Shown piece after piece: positions 1-40,733 of a stretch of 40,733 nt of DNA (position 1 is the stretch's first letter; each line of letters begins with the position of its first letter). A program made the position numbers and the translations under genes. Source of the stretch: a virus; IMG/VR virus record IMGVR_UViG_3300032236_000108, positions 1-40,733 of that record. One strand, 5' to 3'. The notes beneath the pieces were generated by a model, which did not search any database, was not told the DNA's origin, and was given only the letters and a program-made list of their open reading frames with translations.

Positions 1-626
1 ACCCATGGCTTGAAGAGTCCCGTGAAATTGCGGTGACTGTTGCACGTAAAGTACATCGTAGATACCATACGTATTTCGATATGCAAGATGTGACGCAGGA
101 ACTTATGGTGTGGGTACTCAAGCGTCAGGATAAGATTAAGGAATGGCTTGACCATCCGCATGAGTCTGACGAATACAAGATGGGTGTGCGTAAGTTGGCT
201 AAGACTCTGACTCGCAACGCAGATAAGTACTGTCGAAAACTCAAGGCACAGAAGTTGGGCTATGAGGTACGCGATGAGCAGTACTACTCACCCATTTCAT
301 TGAGTGAGTTGCTACCATTCGTATGGTCTGATGTAGTTGAGACAAGGGATGCAAGCAAGCCAAAGGTATCAGGTGGTGGCAACCCAGCAGAGGGTGGCAA
401 CTACGTCATCCAGTTGTTTGATATTCGTAGGGCGTTGAAGAAGTTAGACCCACAAGATAAGTTAGTTTTGCAGATGAAGTTCTTTGAGCAGTTGAACTAT
501 CAAGAGATAGCGCAGACCTTTGGCGTATCTGATAGCACCGCACACCGCAAGGTAGATGGCGCACTGCGTCGCTTGAATAACCACCTCGGTGGGCAGACAC
601 CATTCCAAAGTGAGGTGGAGATGTGA
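1..626 (+). CDS. ECF-type sigma-factor-like protein (3' part; gene starts at 40598 across the circular join)
   Basis: Probable phage sigma factor or sigma-like regulator. Seen: a region-2-like helix near the start (HTYFDMQDVTQELMVWVL) and a region-4-like helix-turn-helix near the C-terminus (ALKKLDPQDKLVLQMKF, then QLNYQEIAQTFGVSDSTAHR). Within the window the frame is open from base 3. The first internal start is a GTG at 33, but across the join the frame extends 15 codons to an ATG at 40598, giving 212 aa. That ATG overlaps the end of the metallophosphoesterase gene, as is typical of this operon, so I prefer it. The Gly/Lys-rich linker between the two regions fits the two-domain ECF layout. 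It could instead be a terminase-small-subunit-like or RinA-like HTH protein. Inference: it may redirect host RNA polymerase to phage promoters. Confidence 0.7.
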   Translation, partial: PWLEESREIAVTVARKVHRRYHTYFDMQDVTQELMVWVLKRQDKIKEWLDHPHESDEYKMGVRKLAKTLTRNADKYCRKLKAQKLGYEVRDEQYYSPISLSELLPFVWSDVVETRDASKPKVSGGGNPAEGGNYVIQLFDIRRALKKLDPQDKLVLQMKFFEQLNYQEIAQTFGVSDSTAHRKVDGALRRLNNHLGGQTPFQSEVEM

Positions 627-1038: not shown

Positions 1039-1332
1039 TTACAACGTCAATCCTATTGGTGCTTGCACTGTTGCAATTATGCCATACGAATGCTCATCAA
1101 TGGCACTGACATGCTTCTTGTAGTCCTTCAATAAATTATTGCGTGTGTTGTATGGACCAACTGCTATTGCTACCTTCACAGTTGGGTGTACAACTACTGC
1201 CATGTATGACTCGCGTTCTGCTATCAGTTCTTCTGCCAACGCCCATACTTTCTTAGCCATATCTTCACTGCTCTCTGCCTCTGTATCTAGCAGGGCAGCC
1301 ATCTTCTTAATCTCACTAGGCTTTGCTTTCAC
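1039..1332 (-). CDS. Hypothetical protein, 97 aa
   Basis: Last gene of the leftward operon. The GTG start at 1332 lies inside the 3' end of the glycosyltransferase gene (17-nt overlap). The N-terminal third is charged and helical (SEIKKMAALLDTEAESSEDMAKKVWALAEELIAE); the C-terminal half looks like a small beta domain (YMAVVVHPTVKVAIAVGPY). No family recognised. Terminated by the hairpin at 952-983. Confidence 0.6.
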   Translation of the reverse strand: MKAKPSEIKKMAALLDTEAESSEDMAKKVWALAEELIAERESYMAVVVHPTVKVAIAVGPYNTRNNLLKDYKKHVSAIDEHSYGIIATVQAPIGLTL

Positions 1333-2128
1333 GTAGTAACTCCATCCACTTGACGCATGCTTCTACATTTTCTTTCAATGTAAGGTGCCCGTATATCTCA
1401 CGGTTATCTAGGTACTGCGGGATACCCAACTTGCGTAGTTCACGTGAGAAGATGACGTACTCGTAGTCATCAGTGCCATCTACATATCGCACATTATGGA
1501 AGACATCACGGCGTACCAGGTAGGTGCAGTGCACCACGTCACACTCGATGAGTCCCTTAATCTCACGATTGAGTACTGTGTAGTACCTCACATCGTCTCG
1601 ATAGTAGCCATTGACATTGGTCAGCAGGTGGTAGTTGCTGTATGGCTTGTGTTGTTCCTCATCTGGCGTCACTGCATAGCGCAGGAGCGGGGCTACAACG
1701 GGCAAATTAAGCCCTACAAGGGTGCGTAGCGTGTGCGGTAGGACAAAGTTGTCCACATCTATCACCCAGTAGAAGTCTGCCTCTGATTGCCACGCTGCCT
1801 CGATACTTTTCTCTCTGATTTCACCCAACGCTTTGAAGCGGACAGGGTTCCACTCATGGACATCGAACTTGTGGACAGGCACTTCGATATCTGAGTAGTC
1901 AGTGACAACGAATCGGTACCACTTGCCTTGCTCTCCTACCCATGCCTTGAGGATTGCCTCTGTCTCATCAGTGTTGTTGTTGCTGCGAATATAAAGAATG
2001 ATTCTATCCTTTGGATAGTCCCATTGTTCCAAAGACTTAAGCCACTCAGGTAGCATCTTTGCTTTCTGCTTGGCTAGTACTGCCACGAATACCAACGGGT
2101 ATTCTGGGTATGTATAATCGCCGCTCAT
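1316..2128 (-). CDS. GT-A glycosyltransferase resembling collagen-modifying glycosyltransferases (COLGALT / lysyl hydroxylase 3 type)
   Basis: A 270-aa nucleotide-sugar-dependent GT-A enzyme. Seen: N-terminal beta strand and helix with WLKSLEQWDYPKDRI (29-43); a DxD-type metal/sugar site DVDN (124-127) in FYWVIDVDNF; VVAPLL (144-149); SNYH (164-167); NGYYR (173-177); a late acidic DDYEYVIF; and NREIYGHL near the end. From memory, this order (LDYP, vDxDN, VVAPml, SN.W/Y, dGYY, YGhL/fGrL) is that of the N-terminal domain of eukaryotic procollagen galactosyltransferases and the matching domain of LH3. The ATG overlaps the preceding stop (ATGA). The same genome encodes a collagen-like fibre (21635-22801), so that fibre is a plausible acceptor. 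Family-level glycosyltransferase assignment is firm; the acceptor is inference. Confidence 0.8.
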   Translation of the reverse strand: MSGDYTYPEYPLVFVAVLAKQKAKMLPEWLKSLEQWDYPKDRIILYIRSNNNTDETEAILKAWVGEQGKWYRFVVTDYSDIEVPVHKFDVHEWNPVRFKALGEIREKSIEAAWQSEADFYWVIDVDNFVLPHTLRTLVGLNLPVVAPLLRYAVTPDEEQHKPYSNYHLLTNVNGYYRDDVRYYTVLNREIKGLIECDVVHCTYLVRRDVFHNVRYVDGTDDYEYVIFSRELRKLGIPQYLDNREIYGHLTLKENVEACVKWMELLRESKA

Positions 2129-2489: not shown

Positions 2490-2932
2490 TAGTACCAGCC
2501 TCTCACTTTCTCATGCTTCCAAGCATAGCAGGGATGCCCTGCGTATCTTGTCTCGATGTACTTCTTCTGCCATACCACCTGCGTGATTGGGTTGCGCTTC
2601 CAGTCTGTGCTTATTACGTTGTACTTGCTAGGTGGTAGTGCTTGTGGAATTCCATATGCGCCACCTCTGTGGTTGCGTGCCTTGTAATTCCACTGCGACT
2701 CATGGCGATTGAGTTGGTCGAGACACTTCCATTCTTTATCTGATGTATTCCAGATAAGTTTGGTTGTCTTCTTAATCTCTGCCTTAGTCCAGACGTGTGC
2801 CTTGCTCACTCTAGGTTCCAAGATTCGTCCTGCTGGGAAGCAGAGGGTAAAGATGAGCGTGAAGCATGAGGCACCGACAAGAACTCTGCGATAGGTATAA
2901 ACTCTTTGACTGGTCGGGGGATAGGTGGACAT
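2489..2932 (-). CDS. Membrane-anchored lysozyme-like / transglycosylase (aggregation-promoting-factor type)
   Basis: Peptidoglycan-cleaving enzyme of 147 aa. Seen: a basic N-terminus, one membrane segment (about residues 16-35, VLVGASCFTLIFTL), then a lysozyme-like domain with KCLDQLNRHESQWN (E78 as probable catalytic acid), RGGAYGIPQALP and a final WKHEKVRGWY. This pattern (CL..LW..ES.W...A...GGAYGIPQA...GWY) is the actinobacterial APF/Rpf-type domain. Its 5' end overlaps the whiB-like gene by 127 nt in another frame, and no other start would keep the membrane segment. It sits in the early leftward operon, not with the CHAP endolysin, so it may act at infection or be a second lysis enzyme; that is inference. 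Confidence 0.8.
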   Translation of the reverse strand: MSTYPPTSQRVYTYRRVLVGASCFTLIFTLCFPAGRILEPRVSKAHVWTKAEIKKTTKLIWNTSDKEWKCLDQLNRHESQWNYKARNHRGGAYGIPQALPPSKYNVISTDWKRNPITQVVWQKKYIETRYAGHPCYAWKHEKVRGWY

Positions 2933-3267
2933 ACAAGACTCGCTTTCTTGCCAAGAACTGCTGTTCTTAGTTTGGAATAGTAGGCAAAAGATGTTGGCTG
3001 CCCTTGTGGCAAGCCGATAACTGCATCTCTTTCATGTGGGAATGTTCCGCCCCATATGCCATACGACTCGCGCATATCTACTGCGAATTGCAGGCACTTT
3101 GATTGCATAGGGCAACGCTGGCACGCTGATAGCGCAACCACTGTTGCATAGACTAGTTCTTGTCCTTGCTCGCCACGAAAGTGGGAACGTCCTGGAGTTG
3201 GGTCGGGGAAGAAAGACTCAGGGTCTAGGTCGAGGCATGCAGGATTATCGTCGGGTGCTAGGTTCAC
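2806..3267 (-). CDS. WhiB-family iron-sulfur transcription regulator
   Basis: WhiB-like proteins are actinobacterial [4Fe-4S] regulators that bind the host primary sigma factor. Seen: the four cluster cysteines C11, C49, C52 and C58 (CQRCPMQSKC) and the GIWGG turn (70-74) after the cluster. At 153 aa it is longer than most phage WhiB proteins; the extra C-terminus (PVKEFIPIAEFLSVPHASRS and beyond) coincides with the out-of-frame overlap with the lysozyme-like gene. Start GTG at 3267 overlaps the upstream TGA (GTGA). Inference: it remodels host transcription early or prevents superinfection, as reported for WhiB proteins of some mycobacteriophages. Confidence 0.9.
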   Translation of the reverse strand: MNLAPDDNPACLDLDPESFFPDPTPGRSHFRGEQGQELVYATVVALSACQRCPMQSKCLQFAVDMRESYGIWGGTFPHERDAVIGLPQGQPTSFAYYSKLRTAVLGKKASLVCPPIPRPVKEFIPIAEFLSVPHASRSSLPSASQQDESWNLE

Positions 3268-19918: not shown

Positions 19919-20956
19919 ATGACTAACGCATATACAGATACATCCAGCGGGTCCCTAGGTAACTACCTAGTACAGACAGCGTATGACCGCTATGTCGAAT
20001 TCGCACTTCGTGCTGTACCAATGGTACGCGACGTTGCAGACAAGCGCCCAGTACAGCAAGCAATGCCAGGTTCTTCAGTAGTCTTCCAGATTTACACAGA
20101 CCTTGCACAGGCTACAACCGCACTCTCAGAAACAACTGACCCAGATGCAGTAGCACTTGGTAACACAACACAAGTTTCTGTCACACTACAGGAATACGGA
20201 AATGCTTCACTTGCAACACGCAAGTTGGAACTCTTCTCACTCTCAGATGTTGACCCAGCAATCGCTGACATCATCGCCTTCAACATGGCTGACTCACTTG
20301 ATACAGTTGCACTTGCAACTCTTATCGGTGGTACAAACGCTATTGCTGAAGTTAACGGCGCTGCTGTATCTACCTACGCAGGTACATACACCAACGGCAC
20401 AACACAGAAGTCAATCCTCTCAACTGACACAATCAAGTCTCGTGACATTCGTTTGGCTGTTGCTAAACTACGTGCTAACAAGGCTGTCCCACGTCAGGGA
20501 GAATACTACTGGTGTGGTATCCACCCAGAAGTTTCACATGACCTCCGCGCTGAGACAGGCTCAGGCGGATGGCGTGATGACCACAAGTTCTCAGAGACAG
20601 GTGCTTCTGAGTTCTGGCCAGGAACAATCGGAACATACGAAGGTGCTATGTTCGTAGAGTCTCCACGTATGGCTAACTTCGCTGACGGTACAGGTTCTGG
20701 TTCAGCATCAGGTACTTTCGGTACTTCTTCATACGTCAACGCAACTGGTGGTGTTCGTGTATTCCGTACACTCGTCGCTGGTAAGCAGGCTCTTGCAGAA
20801 GCAGTGGCTGAAGAACCACACGTAATCTTCGGTCCAATCGTTGACAAGTTGATGCGTTTCCGTCCAATCGGATGGTACGGCGTACTTGGATGGGCACGTT
20901 ACCGTGAACCATCACTCGTTCGAATTGAGTCAACTTCGAGCATCCACACCGCTTAG
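19919..20956 (+). CDS. Major capsid protein
   Basis: A 345-aa protein after the scaffold gene, with AGAAGG ribosome-binding site. Seen: an N-terminal arm (YDRYVEFALRAVPMVRDVAD), PGSSVVFQIYTDLAQATTALSETTDPD, then VTLQEYGNASLATRKLELFS, YYWCGIHPEVSHDLRAETGS and a C-terminal YGVLGWARYREPSLVRIEST. This arrangement is typical of HK97-fold capsid proteins of the N4-gp56-like type, where VTLxEYG and the late WYG/LGWARY segments recur. A hairpin terminator just downstream may hold down expression of the following tail genes relative to capsid. Confidence 0.85.
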   Translation: MTNAYTDTSSGSLGNYLVQTAYDRYVEFALRAVPMVRDVADKRPVQQAMPGSSVVFQIYTDLAQATTALSETTDPDAVALGNTTQVSVTLQEYGNASLATRKLELFSLSDVDPAIADIIAFNMADSLDTVALATLIGGTNAIAEVNGAAVSTYAGTYTNGTTQKSILSTDTIKSRDIRLAVAKLRANKAVPRQGEYYWCGIHPEVSHDLRAETGSGGWRDDHKFSETGASEFWPGTIGTYEGAMFVESPRMANFADGTGSGSASGTFGTSSYVNATGGVRVFRTLVAGKQALAEAVAEEPHVIFGPIVDKLMRFRPIGWYGVLGWARYREPSLVRIESTSSIHTA

Positions 20957-21290: not shown

Positions 21291-22801
<1,511 letters not shown>

Positions 22802-22814
22802 TACACTAAGCAAT

Positions 22815-23915
22815 ATGAAGATTGCTGTGTATGCTATAGCAAAGGATGAAATACTCCATTGCGAAAGATGGGCAGAGGCAACCAAAGGTGCGGACTATCG
22901 CATCGTTGCTGACACTGGTTCCACAGATGGCACTCAAGAAAAGTTAAAAGAACTTGGTGTTACGGTACATCAGATTCATGTAAAGCCTTGGCGCTTTGAC
23001 ATGGCACGTAACGCATCATTAGCACTTGTCCCAGATGATGTAGATGTATGTTTGCAGTTAGATATGGACGAAGTTCCAGAACCTGACTTCTTCAAGAAGG
23101 TACGCAAGTACTGGGTACCTGGCTCAGATATGGGCTGGATTTCCATGAAGACAGATGCTAACAAGTGGGAACGAGATAGACTTCATAGCAGATGGAATTG
23201 GATATGGAAATATAATATCCATGAAGTAAACATCTGGTATGGCAAGGGCGAAGCAAAGGACTGCGATGTTCGCCAGGCAGTGATTCACCATCTGCCAGAT
23301 AACAATAAGTCCCGTGGTCAATACCTTGGAATGCTTGAAGAAGGCGTCAAGGAATATAAAGATGATGCACGCATGTGGACATACATGACACGTGAGTATT
23401 TCTTCTATGCCAAATGGGAAGATGTTATCCGTAGCGCAGAAGAAAAAATAAAACTTGGTGGTTGGGACGTAGAGTCCGCCGCCGTCTGCCGATGGGCAGG
23501 AGAAGCAGCACATCAACTTGGTAAAGAAGAAGAAGCCAGGACTTGGTATGAAAAGGGAGTAGAGATACTTCCAGGCCAAGGCGAGCCGCAGTTTAGCGTA
23601 GCCATGGATGCATACCGAAAACAAGAATGGCAGCGTTGTTTAGACGCTGCAATAGACGCCTTAGAGTCTCCCCGCTCTAACCATTACTGCTACGAATCAG
23701 CAGTGTGGGACTGGAAAGCCTACGATTTAGCAGGCATTGCAGCCTTCAACCTCAAGCACATAGATGAGGCAATCACCTTTACGCAAGAAGCGGCAAAGGC
23801 TAATGGTCCAGAGAATGAGCGCATTATGCGCAACCTAGAGTTCTTTAAGAAAGTGAAAGATGAATCATCAGCACACAAGCAAAGTTCTAGCATGGGGAAT
23901 AAACGAAAAGTATGA
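22815..23915 (+). CDS. GT2-family glycosyltransferase with TPR-like C-terminus
   Basis: A 366-aa enzyme, probably transferring a sugar to a protein. Seen: VYAIAKDEILHCERW (5-19), ADTGSTDGT (32-40), the RFDMARN motif (60-66), and the metal/sugar site LDMDE (82-86), all typical of GT2 enzymes of the SunS-like/TPR-glycosyltransferase group. From about residue 190 the protein is helical with TPR-like repeats (EEARTWYEKGVEILPGQGEP, RKQEWQRCLDAAIDALES, FNLKHIDEAITFTQEAAKAN). It directly follows the collagen-like fibre gene, and I propose that fibre as the acceptor. No clear Shine-Dalgarno sequence precedes it, so translation may be coupled to the fibre gene. Its 3' end overlaps the next gene by 56 nt. 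Confidence 0.85.
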   Translation: MKIAVYAIAKDEILHCERWAEATKGADYRIVADTGSTDGTQEKLKELGVTVHQIHVKPWRFDMARNASLALVPDDVDVCLQLDMDEVPEPDFFKKVRKYWVPGSDMGWISMKTDANKWERDRLHSRWNWIWKYNIHEVNIWYGKGEAKDCDVRQAVIHHLPDNNKSRGQYLGMLEEGVKEYKDDARMWTYMTREYFFYAKWEDVIRSAEEKIKLGGWDVESAAVCRWAGEAAHQLGKEEEARTWYEKGVEILPGQGEPQFSVAMDAYRKQEWQRCLDAAIDALESPRSNHYCYESAVWDWKAYDLAGIAAFNLKHIDEAITFTQEAAKANGPENERIMRNLEFFKKVKDESSAHKQSSSMGNKRKV

Positions 23916-24303
23916 CTCAGTTCCGTTACTTTATGGATGCACTGATTGTGAAGAGACTTCGGCTACCCCGTTCACGTATGAAGAAGTTGACACTGGCCAT
24001 TCTAGGCATACTGATTATGTACAAGGTTGCTTCGGCTGTAAAGCAGAAACTCTCCAACTAAGTACAGGAGATGCAGGACGCTCTGATTCCATGAGCGACA
24101 AGAAGTGGAACGCAGAACTTAACGCCTACAGAGATGCAAGAGCGCAAGGTGTTCAGCCAGCAGGTACAACCATGAAGGCTGTCAAAGACGCAATGGATGC
24201 AAGCGACAAATTGGGAGCAGCGTACAACGCTGATGTCATGCCATCCGTAGAAAAGATTACCAAGCAAAGTGCTGCGGTATTAAAACACACAGGAGACATC
24301 TAA
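23860..24303 (+). CDS. Protein with N-terminal Cys pairs, 147 aa
   Basis: Seen: VLAWGINEKYDSVPLLYGCTDC and YVQGCFGCKAETLQL, two CxxC pairs forming a likely zinc site, then a helical region (KWNAELNAYRDARAQGVQP, MKAVKDAMDASDKLGAAY). I recognise similar proteins in actinobacterial and freshwater phages near tail genes, without known role. Start lies within the end of the glycosyltransferase; stop overlaps the next ATG (TAATG). Confidence 0.65.
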   Translation: MNHQHTSKVLAWGINEKYDSVPLLYGCTDCEETSATPFTYEEVDTGHSRHTDYVQGCFGCKAETLQLSTGDAGRSDSMSDKKWNAELNAYRDARAQGVQPAGTTMKAVKDAMDASDKLGAAYNADVMPSVEKITKQSAAVLKHTGDI

Positions 24304-37304: not shown

Positions 37305-37794
37305 CCCAAGTGCTGGCCATGAACATGCTCTCGGTAGACTCAGTATCCCGTACATTACCCCTGCAGGTATTGTGGGTATTAAGTTTCGTGCTATTGATGG
37401 CGGTGTACCAAAGTACTTATGGCCAACTGGTCAGAAGATTGGTCTATTTAACGTCCCTGATTTACATAAACATAGCGATACGATTGCCATATGTGAAGGC
37501 GAGATTGACACCATTGTTCTTTCAGGTCTGGTCGGAATACCTGCAGTCGGTGTGGCAGGCGTTAGTCAATGGAAGCCATGGTTCCCCAAACTCTTTGAGT
37601 CATATTCCCGCATCCTCATCTTTGCTGACAATGACGTTAAGGAAGATGGAAGAAACCCAGGACAAGAACTCGCTAAGAGAATCAAAGAAGATTTAGACAA
37701 AGCGGACATAGTACATTTACCAGACAATCAGGATGTAAATGATATATACTTAGAGTATGGTAACGTATGGTTCGAAGAGAAGTTGGTAGCATGA
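37159..37794 (+). CDS. Primase catalytic (Toprim) ORF
   Basis: 211 aa. Seen: AAEKYCTSLTPQAASYLAGRG (start of the DnaG catalytic domain), LGRLSIPYITPAGIVGIKFR, the Toprim glutamate in ICEGEIDTIVLSG (112-123) and the metal-binding LIFADNDV (153-160, D157 and D159). It makes RNA primers. It has its own ATG with AAAGGAAGG 14 nt upstream, slightly far, so it could be a separate subunit or be reached by +1 frameshifting from the zinc-domain ORF. The helicase-like C-terminus of bacterial DnaG is absent. Confidence 0.82.
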   Translation: MLNEKQRQLLTDAAEKYCTSLTPQAASYLAGRGITKEVANTFRLGSVVDPSAGHEHALGRLSIPYITPAGIVGIKFRAIDGGVPKYLWPTGQKIGLFNVPDLHKHSDTIAICEGEIDTIVLSGLVGIPAVGVAGVSQWKPWFPKLFESYSRILIFADNDVKEDGRNPGQELAKRIKEDLDKADIVHLPDNQDVNDIYLEYGNVWFEEKLVA

Positions 37795-38363
37795 AGTCAT
37801 CAGAAGTATTCGACGACATTTACCGTAAGTCAACGTGGGGCTTTCAGTCTGGCCCTGGCTCTGACCCAGTAGCAGCCAAGCCATGGATTGATATTGTCAA
37901 TGGCTACCTATCACTTCCAGATGTAGTCAAGGTACTTGACATCGGCTGTGGTGACTGGCGCTTGGGAGAAATGTACAATTTAGAAAATAAAAAGTACATT
38001 GGTATAGACGTCAGCGACGAGGCTCTTACTATCGCACGTAAGAAAGCAAAGCACGGCGCTATCTTTATGCACAATGATGCAGCAACTATGAAGATTGAAG
38101 GGGAAGTAGATTTAATCCTCATCAAGGATGTGCTTCAACACCTACCTAATGCAACCATTGAGATTATCATGGACAAGATTCTTACTCATGCTAGGTATGC
38201 ACTCATCTGCAACGACATTGGCACAGGTAATGGTGACACTCATGTAGGTGGACACCGTGGCTTGAACCTACAGGATGACCCATTCCTTTACCCAGTTACA
38301 AACCTTTGGTATTACGGCGCACAGATTAAGATGATTAACCTGTACGAAAGGGATAGCAAGTGA
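37791..38363 (+). CDS. Class I SAM-dependent methyltransferase
   Basis: 190 aa from the ATG at 37791 (ATGA overlap; a GTG 24 nt upstream lies inside the primase). Seen: STWGFQSGPGSDP, the SAM-binding motif VLDIGCGDWRLG, YIGIDVSDEAL (acidic ribose-binding Asp), DLILIKDVLQHLPN and ICNDIG. This WG.GSGPGS + DIGCGDW + KDVLQH family is common in viruses and bacteria with unknown acceptors. No DPPY-type DNA adenine motif is present, so a DNA target is not evident. Confidence 0.8.
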   Translation: MKSSEVFDDIYRKSTWGFQSGPGSDPVAAKPWIDIVNGYLSLPDVVKVLDIGCGDWRLGEMYNLENKKYIGIDVSDEALTIARKKAKHGAIFMHNDAATMKIEGEVDLILIKDVLQHLPNATIEIIMDKILTHARYALICNDIGTGNGDTHVGGHRGLNLQDDPFLYPVTNLWYYGAQIKMINLYERDSK

Positions 38364-40610: not shown

Positions 40611-40733
40611 ACCCATGGCTTGAAGAGTCCCGTGAAATTGCGGTGACTGTTGCACGTAAAGTACATCGTAGATACCATACGTATTTCGATATGCAAGATG
40701 TGACGCAGGAACTTATGGTGTGGGTACTCAAGC
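40598..40733 (+). CDS. 5' part of the sigma-factor-like gene (continues at base 124 of the window)
   Basis: ATG at 40598, then GCG GTG GTA GAC CCA TGG, giving MAVVDPWLEESREIAV before joining the frame seen at 33. This start fits operon-style overlap with the preceding gene. The window end is the assembly join, not a gene end. Confidence 0.75.
   Translation, partial: MAVVDPWLEESREIAVTVARKVHRRYHTYFDMQDVTQELMVWVLK
40611..40733 (+). repeat. 123-bp terminal direct repeat (identical to 1-123)
   Basis: Bases 40611-40733 repeat bases 1-123 exactly, from ACCCATGGCT to TACTCAAGC. The repeat lies inside one gene and carries no structure of its own, so it most likely marks circular closure of the assembly (or a circularly permuted genome) rather than a biological terminal repeat. 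Confidence 0.9.

Follow-up and report, generated by a model that had tools for sequence, protein, structure and literature searches.

The 40,733-bp IMG/VR virus record IMGVR_UViG_3300032236_000108, analysed here over positions 1 to 40,733 and referred to as the window, encodes a glycosyltransferase at 1316-2128 and, on the opposite strand, a collagen-like fibre protein whose gene is directly followed by that of a second glycosyltransferase with GT2 and TPR parts (GT2-TPR; Table 1). The genome is probably complete because an exact 123-bp direct terminal repeat lies at both ends, and the presence of glycosyltransferase and collagen gene in one genome is therefore secure. The initial annotation had placed the two about 20 kb apart in different operons, and the measured distance is 19.5 kb. 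We propose, with a probability of roughly 0.7, that the 1316-2128 enzyme and GT2-TPR O-glycosylate the Gly-X-Thr triplets of the fibre.

Sequence and fold relatives of the 1316-2128 product

The 270-aa protein contains WDYPKDR (residues 36-42), DVDN (124-127), VVAPLL (144-149), SNYH (164-167), NGYY (173-176), and YGHL (246-249), that is, all six motifs listed by the initial annotation in the order given there, from residue 36 to 249. In phmmer searches against all PDB sequences, it matches COLGALT1 (E = 2e-22, query residues 9-251) and LH3 (E = 1.4e-10, query residues 11-250), while a profile of 20 family sequences finds COLGALT1 (1.3e-33), LH3 (2.5e-17), and mimivirus R699 (1.5e-7). The AlphaFold model (predicted local distance difference test, pLDDT, 85; predicted template modelling score 0.87) superposes on COLGALT1 residues 44-321 with a Z-score of 30.8 (2.6 Å over 257 residues, 23% identity) and on LH3 chain residues 293-547, the accessory (AC) domain, with 26.3, followed by Mnn9 (21.9), R699 (20.7), and other GT-A enzymes (~17). 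The comparison with COLGALT1 and LH3 structures proposed at the outset thus places both well above plain GT2 enzymes. In sequence and fold alike, the nearest match is the GalT-N domain of COLGALT1, followed by the LH3 accessory domain, and the model identifies the protein as a predicted GT-A fold glycosyltransferase with a conserved DXD motif. The suspected likeness to COLGALT and LH3 holds over the whole span, but the counterparts are GalT-N and AC, described as "non-catalytic"; a correspondence to GT25 or to the catalytic LH3 glycosyltransferase domain was rejected, as the matches land on GalT-N and AC. A plain cell-wall GT2 enzyme was likewise rejected, with fold matches to TarS, TarP, RmlT, and SpsA at Z ~16-17 versus 30.8.

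With COLGALT1 GalT-N, the phage protein shares the fold and the order of DXD-N, VVAP, SN, GYY, and YGxL, whereas it lacks the C-terminal catalytic GT25 domain. The AC domains of LH3/PLOD3 and R699 are homologous to it in profile and fold; they are parts of larger enzymes, in contrast to the single-domain phage protein, which has neither the lysyl hydroxylase nor the catalytic glycosyltransferase domain of LH3/PLOD and matches the PDB entry only in the AC region. Mnn9/Anp1 (GT62) provides the next-best fold, and several bacterial homologs exceed the cut-off of Pfam Anp1 (PF03452; up to 36.6 bits), while the phage protein stays below it (18.1 versus 28.8 bits). It also misses the cut-offs of PF00535 (21.3 versus 23.3 bits) and PF13704 (23.9 versus 27.5 bits), and has no match to Glyco_transf_25 and no PHROGs family at E 0.01.

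Across 23 aligned family members from phages and bacteria, D124 and D126 of the DXD motif are invariant (23/23), as are R48, H91, E92, H167, D217, E223, Q238, and D241. At these eight sites, COLGALT1 carries A, K, H, W, P, T, M, and C, such that R48, H91, E92, H167, D217, and E223, retained in the phage protein, are altered in GalT-N. LH3-AC differs at every one of the eight sites that could be aligned, has Ser at the position of the family's H200, and lacks other phage and bacterial invariants. Because these polar residues are invariant in microbes and changed in GalT-N and LH3-AC, the pattern is one that active microbial enzymes and decayed animal domains would produce. In GLT25D1, mutation of the equivalent N-terminal DXD residues D166/D168 abolishes activity (PMC3244457). 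The published DXD positions diverge: one review assigns 461-463 to GalT-N (PMC13382579), while PMC3244457 places the N-terminal DXD at 166-168 and that of the C-terminal domain at 461-463; our alignment fits the N-terminal position.

Viral relatives of 1316-2128 were found at 67 loci in a first scan and at 126 with a profile; no homolog was detected by tblastn in the cultured phages of INPHARED. In most of the 67 loci, a WhiB gene lies upstream and an oppositely oriented sigma factor gene downstream, and the gene is, judged from these contigs, a core gene of its clade. Differences to relatives of 92-94% identity fall mostly on third codon positions (16/5/68 at positions 1/2/3 against L002); the gene is under purifying selection.

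Table 1. Features of the window and their coordinates
Feature	Position	Strand	Remarks
Direct terminal repeat	1..123	.	identical to 40611-40733
COLGALT1 GalT-N / LH3-AC-like glycosyltransferase	1316..2128	-	ATG start, 270 aa, single GT-A domain
WhiB-like regulator	2806..3267	-	same leftward cluster as 1316-2128; indicates actinobacterial host
Major capsid protein	19919..20956	+	collagen and GT2-TPR cassette just downstream
Collagen-like protein	21635..22801	+	388 aa; Pfam Collagen 1.8e-52
GT2 + TPR glycosyltransferase	22815..23915	+	366 aa; directly downstream of collagen gene
Direct terminal repeat	40611..40733	.	identical to 1-123

Linkage to threonine-rich collagens in phages and bacteria

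The fibre contains 113 Gly-X-Y triplets in two long runs, with Thr at Y in 96 of them (0.85), preceded by a non-collagenous N-terminal stretch that contains Ser and Thr. Lys is absent from the Gly-X-Y runs; consequently, hydroxylysine, the acceptor in animals, is excluded in these runs, which sets the system apart from COLGALT, and Thr is the likely acceptor there, although the enzyme may have other substrates. Thr also dominates in nine phage contigs (0.65-0.84 of Y positions). Of 80 viral GT2-TPR genes, 66 lie no more than 2.5 kb from a collagen gene; for 11 of the other 14, none was seen in the fetched stretch, most of these GT2-TPR genes being close to the end of their contig.

On long contigs of the window's clade, collagen, GT2-TPR, and the 1316-2128 homolog occur together with few exceptions. 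Contig G015 breaks off ~150 bp past the capsid gene, at the expected site of the cassette. On two further contigs (31 and 34 kb), collagen and GT2-TPR are present and the 1316-2128 homolog is missing; and G030 (38 kb) has the homolog and, at its very end, collagen, without GT2-TPR. In the E7-like sister clade, all three genes are missing (12/12 long contigs). In cultured E7, the genes flanking the cassette on both sides are represented by homologs, the cassette itself is absent, and the Gly-X-Y runs comprise only 10-12 triplets with a Thr fraction of 0.08-0.20. The trio is complete in a 124-kb phage in which the window's capsid protein finds no match: it encodes the 1316-2128 homolog (52%), GT2-TPR (35%), and Thr-collagens with ~0.77 Thr at Y and no Lys. 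Actinophage DSL-LC01 combines Thr-collagens and GT2-TPR with a tryptophan halogenase and lacks a 1316-2128 homolog; GT2-TPR thus seems to be the more general companion and the COLGALT-N-like enzyme an addition. The halogenase gene of DSL-LC01 (L214:10433-12004) follows two Thr-collagens and directly precedes GT2-TPR.

A scan of genome contigs yielded 12 bacterial loci, two of them betaproteobacterial. Nine of the ten others encode proteins of 663-1895 aa in which a GT2 half with TPR-like repeats precedes the COLGALT-N-like domain; the tenth, in a Parachlamydiaceae metagenome-assembled genome (MAG), encodes a 326-aa protein. Some fusions contain further domains after the COLGALT-N-like domain (methyltransferase, sulfotransferase, or SGNH hydrolase plus GT25), and three end in a methyltransferase domain. 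The bacterial GT2-TPR half matches the phage enzyme in pairwise comparison (5e-14) and in hhalign against the phage profile (99.5%, E 6e-23, 341 columns including the TPR part). Owing to this homology, the two phage enzymes, encoded on opposite sides of the genome, correspond by sequence to one bacterial polypeptide, which supports the pairing of both glycosyltransferases suggested by the initial annotation.

One fusion is that of Bradyrhizobium sp. RD5-C2 (L092:4690-10377; 1895 aa), comprising GT2-TPR, COLGALT-N-like, SGNH hydrolase, and GT25 domains. It matches COLGALT1 twice and collinearly (GalT-N 6e-29, GT25 3e-4) and adjoins a collagen-like gene with 312 Gly-X-Thr-type triplets; the GalT-N-then-GT25 layout of COLGALT1 is, on these matches, already present beside a bacterial collagen. 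Like the phage, this locus combines both domain types with a collagen-like gene; unlike the phage, which has them as separate genes and no GT25, it encodes a cellular fusion with the SGNH hydrolase between the two COLGALT1-like domains. Its GT2 parts match GmaR (7e-9) and SunS (3e-4), which glycosylate proteins or peptides; the phage protein itself matches GmaR only at 0.035. Residues 260-347 of the phage GT2-TPR show a weak Pfam match, under the cut-off (E 0.006), to the peptide-substrate-binding domain of prolyl 4-hydroxylase. Its AlphaFold model was poor (pLDDT 68) and was left out of the fold searches.

A collagen-like gene lies within ~8 kb at 11/17 bacterial loci (15 alphaproteobacterial or chlamydial, two betaproteobacterial), and two of the six loci without one are on contigs of 3.3 and 8.5 kb. 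Assuming 5% per locus, derived from at most ~10 collagen loci per 4-8 Mb genome, 11/16 would arise by chance with p ~2e-11, and 17 instead of 16 alters little. The collagen association that the initial annotation proposed to follow over viral contigs was thus found in the phage clade, in the unrelated 124-kb phage, and in bacteria. Several bacterial clusters share genes of ~760 and 468 aa beside collagen, which Pfam identifies as ABC exporter and HlyD in the one cluster scanned. The bacterial family is rare (7/297 genomes in the Methylobacterium order, 2/301 in the family of G046). In the Methylobacterium order, collagen occurs in 7/7 carriers versus 120/297 sampled genomes (Fisher p 0.0016); this genome-level co-occurrence is by itself modest, and adjacency together with Thr composition carries the argument.

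Bacterial collagens near the gene have a median Thr fraction at Y of 0.90 and a Pro fraction of 0.02 (X plus Y), with Lys in a few of them (up to 0.23 per triplet). For two control sets of 20 collagen loci each, drawn from genomes of the same order that lack the gene, the Thr-at-Y medians are 0.01 and 0.095, with Pro above 0.5; the first, selected by best Pfam score, was biased toward Pro-rich collagens, and the second, added to it, includes three Thr-rich exceptions. Thr at Y is not unique to gene-linked loci but extreme there. Of the Thr-rich controls, that of G190 lies near a GT2-TPR gene (phage profile, 7e-88) and near a gene for a GT25 protein. At L309:4642-12608, in a genome without a COLGALT-N-like domain, a Thr-collagen cluster contains GT2-TPR, a GT25+GT1 protein, DUF707, and another large glycosyltransferase, an alternative set of collagen-linked glycosyltransferases. 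Among bacterial collagen-like proteins, BclA of the Bacillus exosporium is a comparable case whose glycosylation is known (PMC8968730). Literature searches returned no earlier report that places a COLGALT-N-like family next to collagens of bacteria or phages, which does not prove that none exists.

Proposed mechanism and competing explanations

We propose that the 1316-2128 product, as a metal-dependent GT-A enzyme, would act with GT2-TPR to build a short O-glycan on fibre Thr, the acceptor being Thr at Y or a sugar already attached to it. Most likely, GT2-TPR would first glycosylate Thr at Y, with the second sugar coming from the COLGALT-N-like enzyme, or both enzymes would act on different Thr residues. 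The sugar could then stabilise the triple helix in place of hydroxyproline or alter surface binding. Galactosyl-threonine at Y can stabilise a collagen helix in a deep-sea worm. A methylated glycan is conceivable given the methyltransferase of the window and the three bacterial fusions ending in such a domain.

Several observations weigh against this proposal. The homologous animal domains are called catalytically dormant; co-occurrence in the 41-kb clade reflects one inheritance rather than many events; neither betaproteobacterial locus has an adjacent collagen gene, and one of these genomes, a MAG, has no collagen match at all. Moreover, 3/40 controls without the gene (G190, G283, G128) are Thr-rich, and the controls were chosen from a ranked list rather than at random. 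Thr at Y also averages 31.6% across bacteria as a whole and 48.3% among Gram-positives (PMC8968730).

The dormancy of GalT-N and the LH3 accessory domain, the closest solved homologs (PMC13382579), makes it conceivable that the 1316-2128 product is likewise an inactive scaffold that binds the collagen-like chain or GT2-TPR. We consider this improbable, as the DXD and many polar residues lost in animals are invariant across phages and bacteria, the phage gene stands alone, and even GLT25D1 requires its N-terminal DXD. An enzyme that targets phage DNA or host surface glycans, blocking superinfection, instead of the fibre would fit the role proposed for glycosyltransferases of cultured freshwater actinophage relatives (PMC10202952), the position of 1316-2128 in the leftward WhiB cluster away from structural genes, and the betaproteobacterial chromosomal copies without an adjoining collagen gene. 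It is hard to reconcile with the GT2-TPR fusion beside collagen-like genes in bacteria and with the finding that phages nearly always have the gene, collagen, and GT2-TPR together or not at all, including the trio of the 124-kb phage, and we regard it as similarly unlikely. Since the acceptor is deduced from composition and linkage, and the fibre has its Ser- and Thr-containing N-terminal stretch, modification outside Gly-X-Thr or of another virion protein has also to be weighed; given that Thr dominates Y in most of the linked collagens and that the runs of the window lack Lys, its probability is very low. O-glycosylation of Gly-X-Thr by both enzymes is the explanation that we favour.

Genome setting and implications

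The host is probably a freshwater actinobacterium, to which the WhiB-like regulator, the encoded sigma factor, and the capsid protein (53-55% identity to Streptomyces phages, ~61% to the cultured 'Ca. Planktophila' phage E7) jointly point. The collagen and GT2-TPR cassette occupies a slot between the capsid region and the gene at 23860-24303, which in E7 and Immanuel3 is empty or filled by other genes; owing to this placement, the fibre may decorate the capsid rather than the tail. The class I methyltransferase gene lies at 37767-38363, and a relative of it is found near a Bradyrhizobium cluster (L090).

The betaproteobacterial copies, on MAG contigs L081:1836-2753 and L082:7890-8807, are 83-85% identical to the phage gene and sit among chromosomal genes (rpe; glutamate synthase, EamA). 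An unrooted maximum-likelihood tree of phage and bacterial sequences gives full support to the split between phage sequences and bacterial fusions and nests these copies within the phage clade beside the window. Given this position and the base composition of the L081 copy (48% GC, near the 47% of the phage, in a contig of 60% GC), they were probably transferred from phage to bacterium.

As the phage has the domain and a fibre, and bacteria have the fusions beside collagen-like genes, our analysis suggests that glycosylation of collagen-like proteins is microbial and not only animal. More tentatively, phages and bacteria might own a Thr-collagen O-glycosylation, one domain of which is related to, and possibly the source of, the GalT-N/AC domain of animals and giant viruses; we hold this wider claim to be possible but doubtful. 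If the proposed function is true, it would give a role to phage glycosyltransferases so far read as modifiers of DNA or cell wall, and would reveal a possible way of microbial collagen stabilisation without hydroxyproline. Further, it would offer a small stand-alone enzyme for studying a domain that looks inactive in the human collagen enzymes, and a rooted phylogeny could test whether collagen glycosylation in animals has its origin in bacteria or viruses. A working system would be useful for producing glycosylated recombinant collagen in bacteria.
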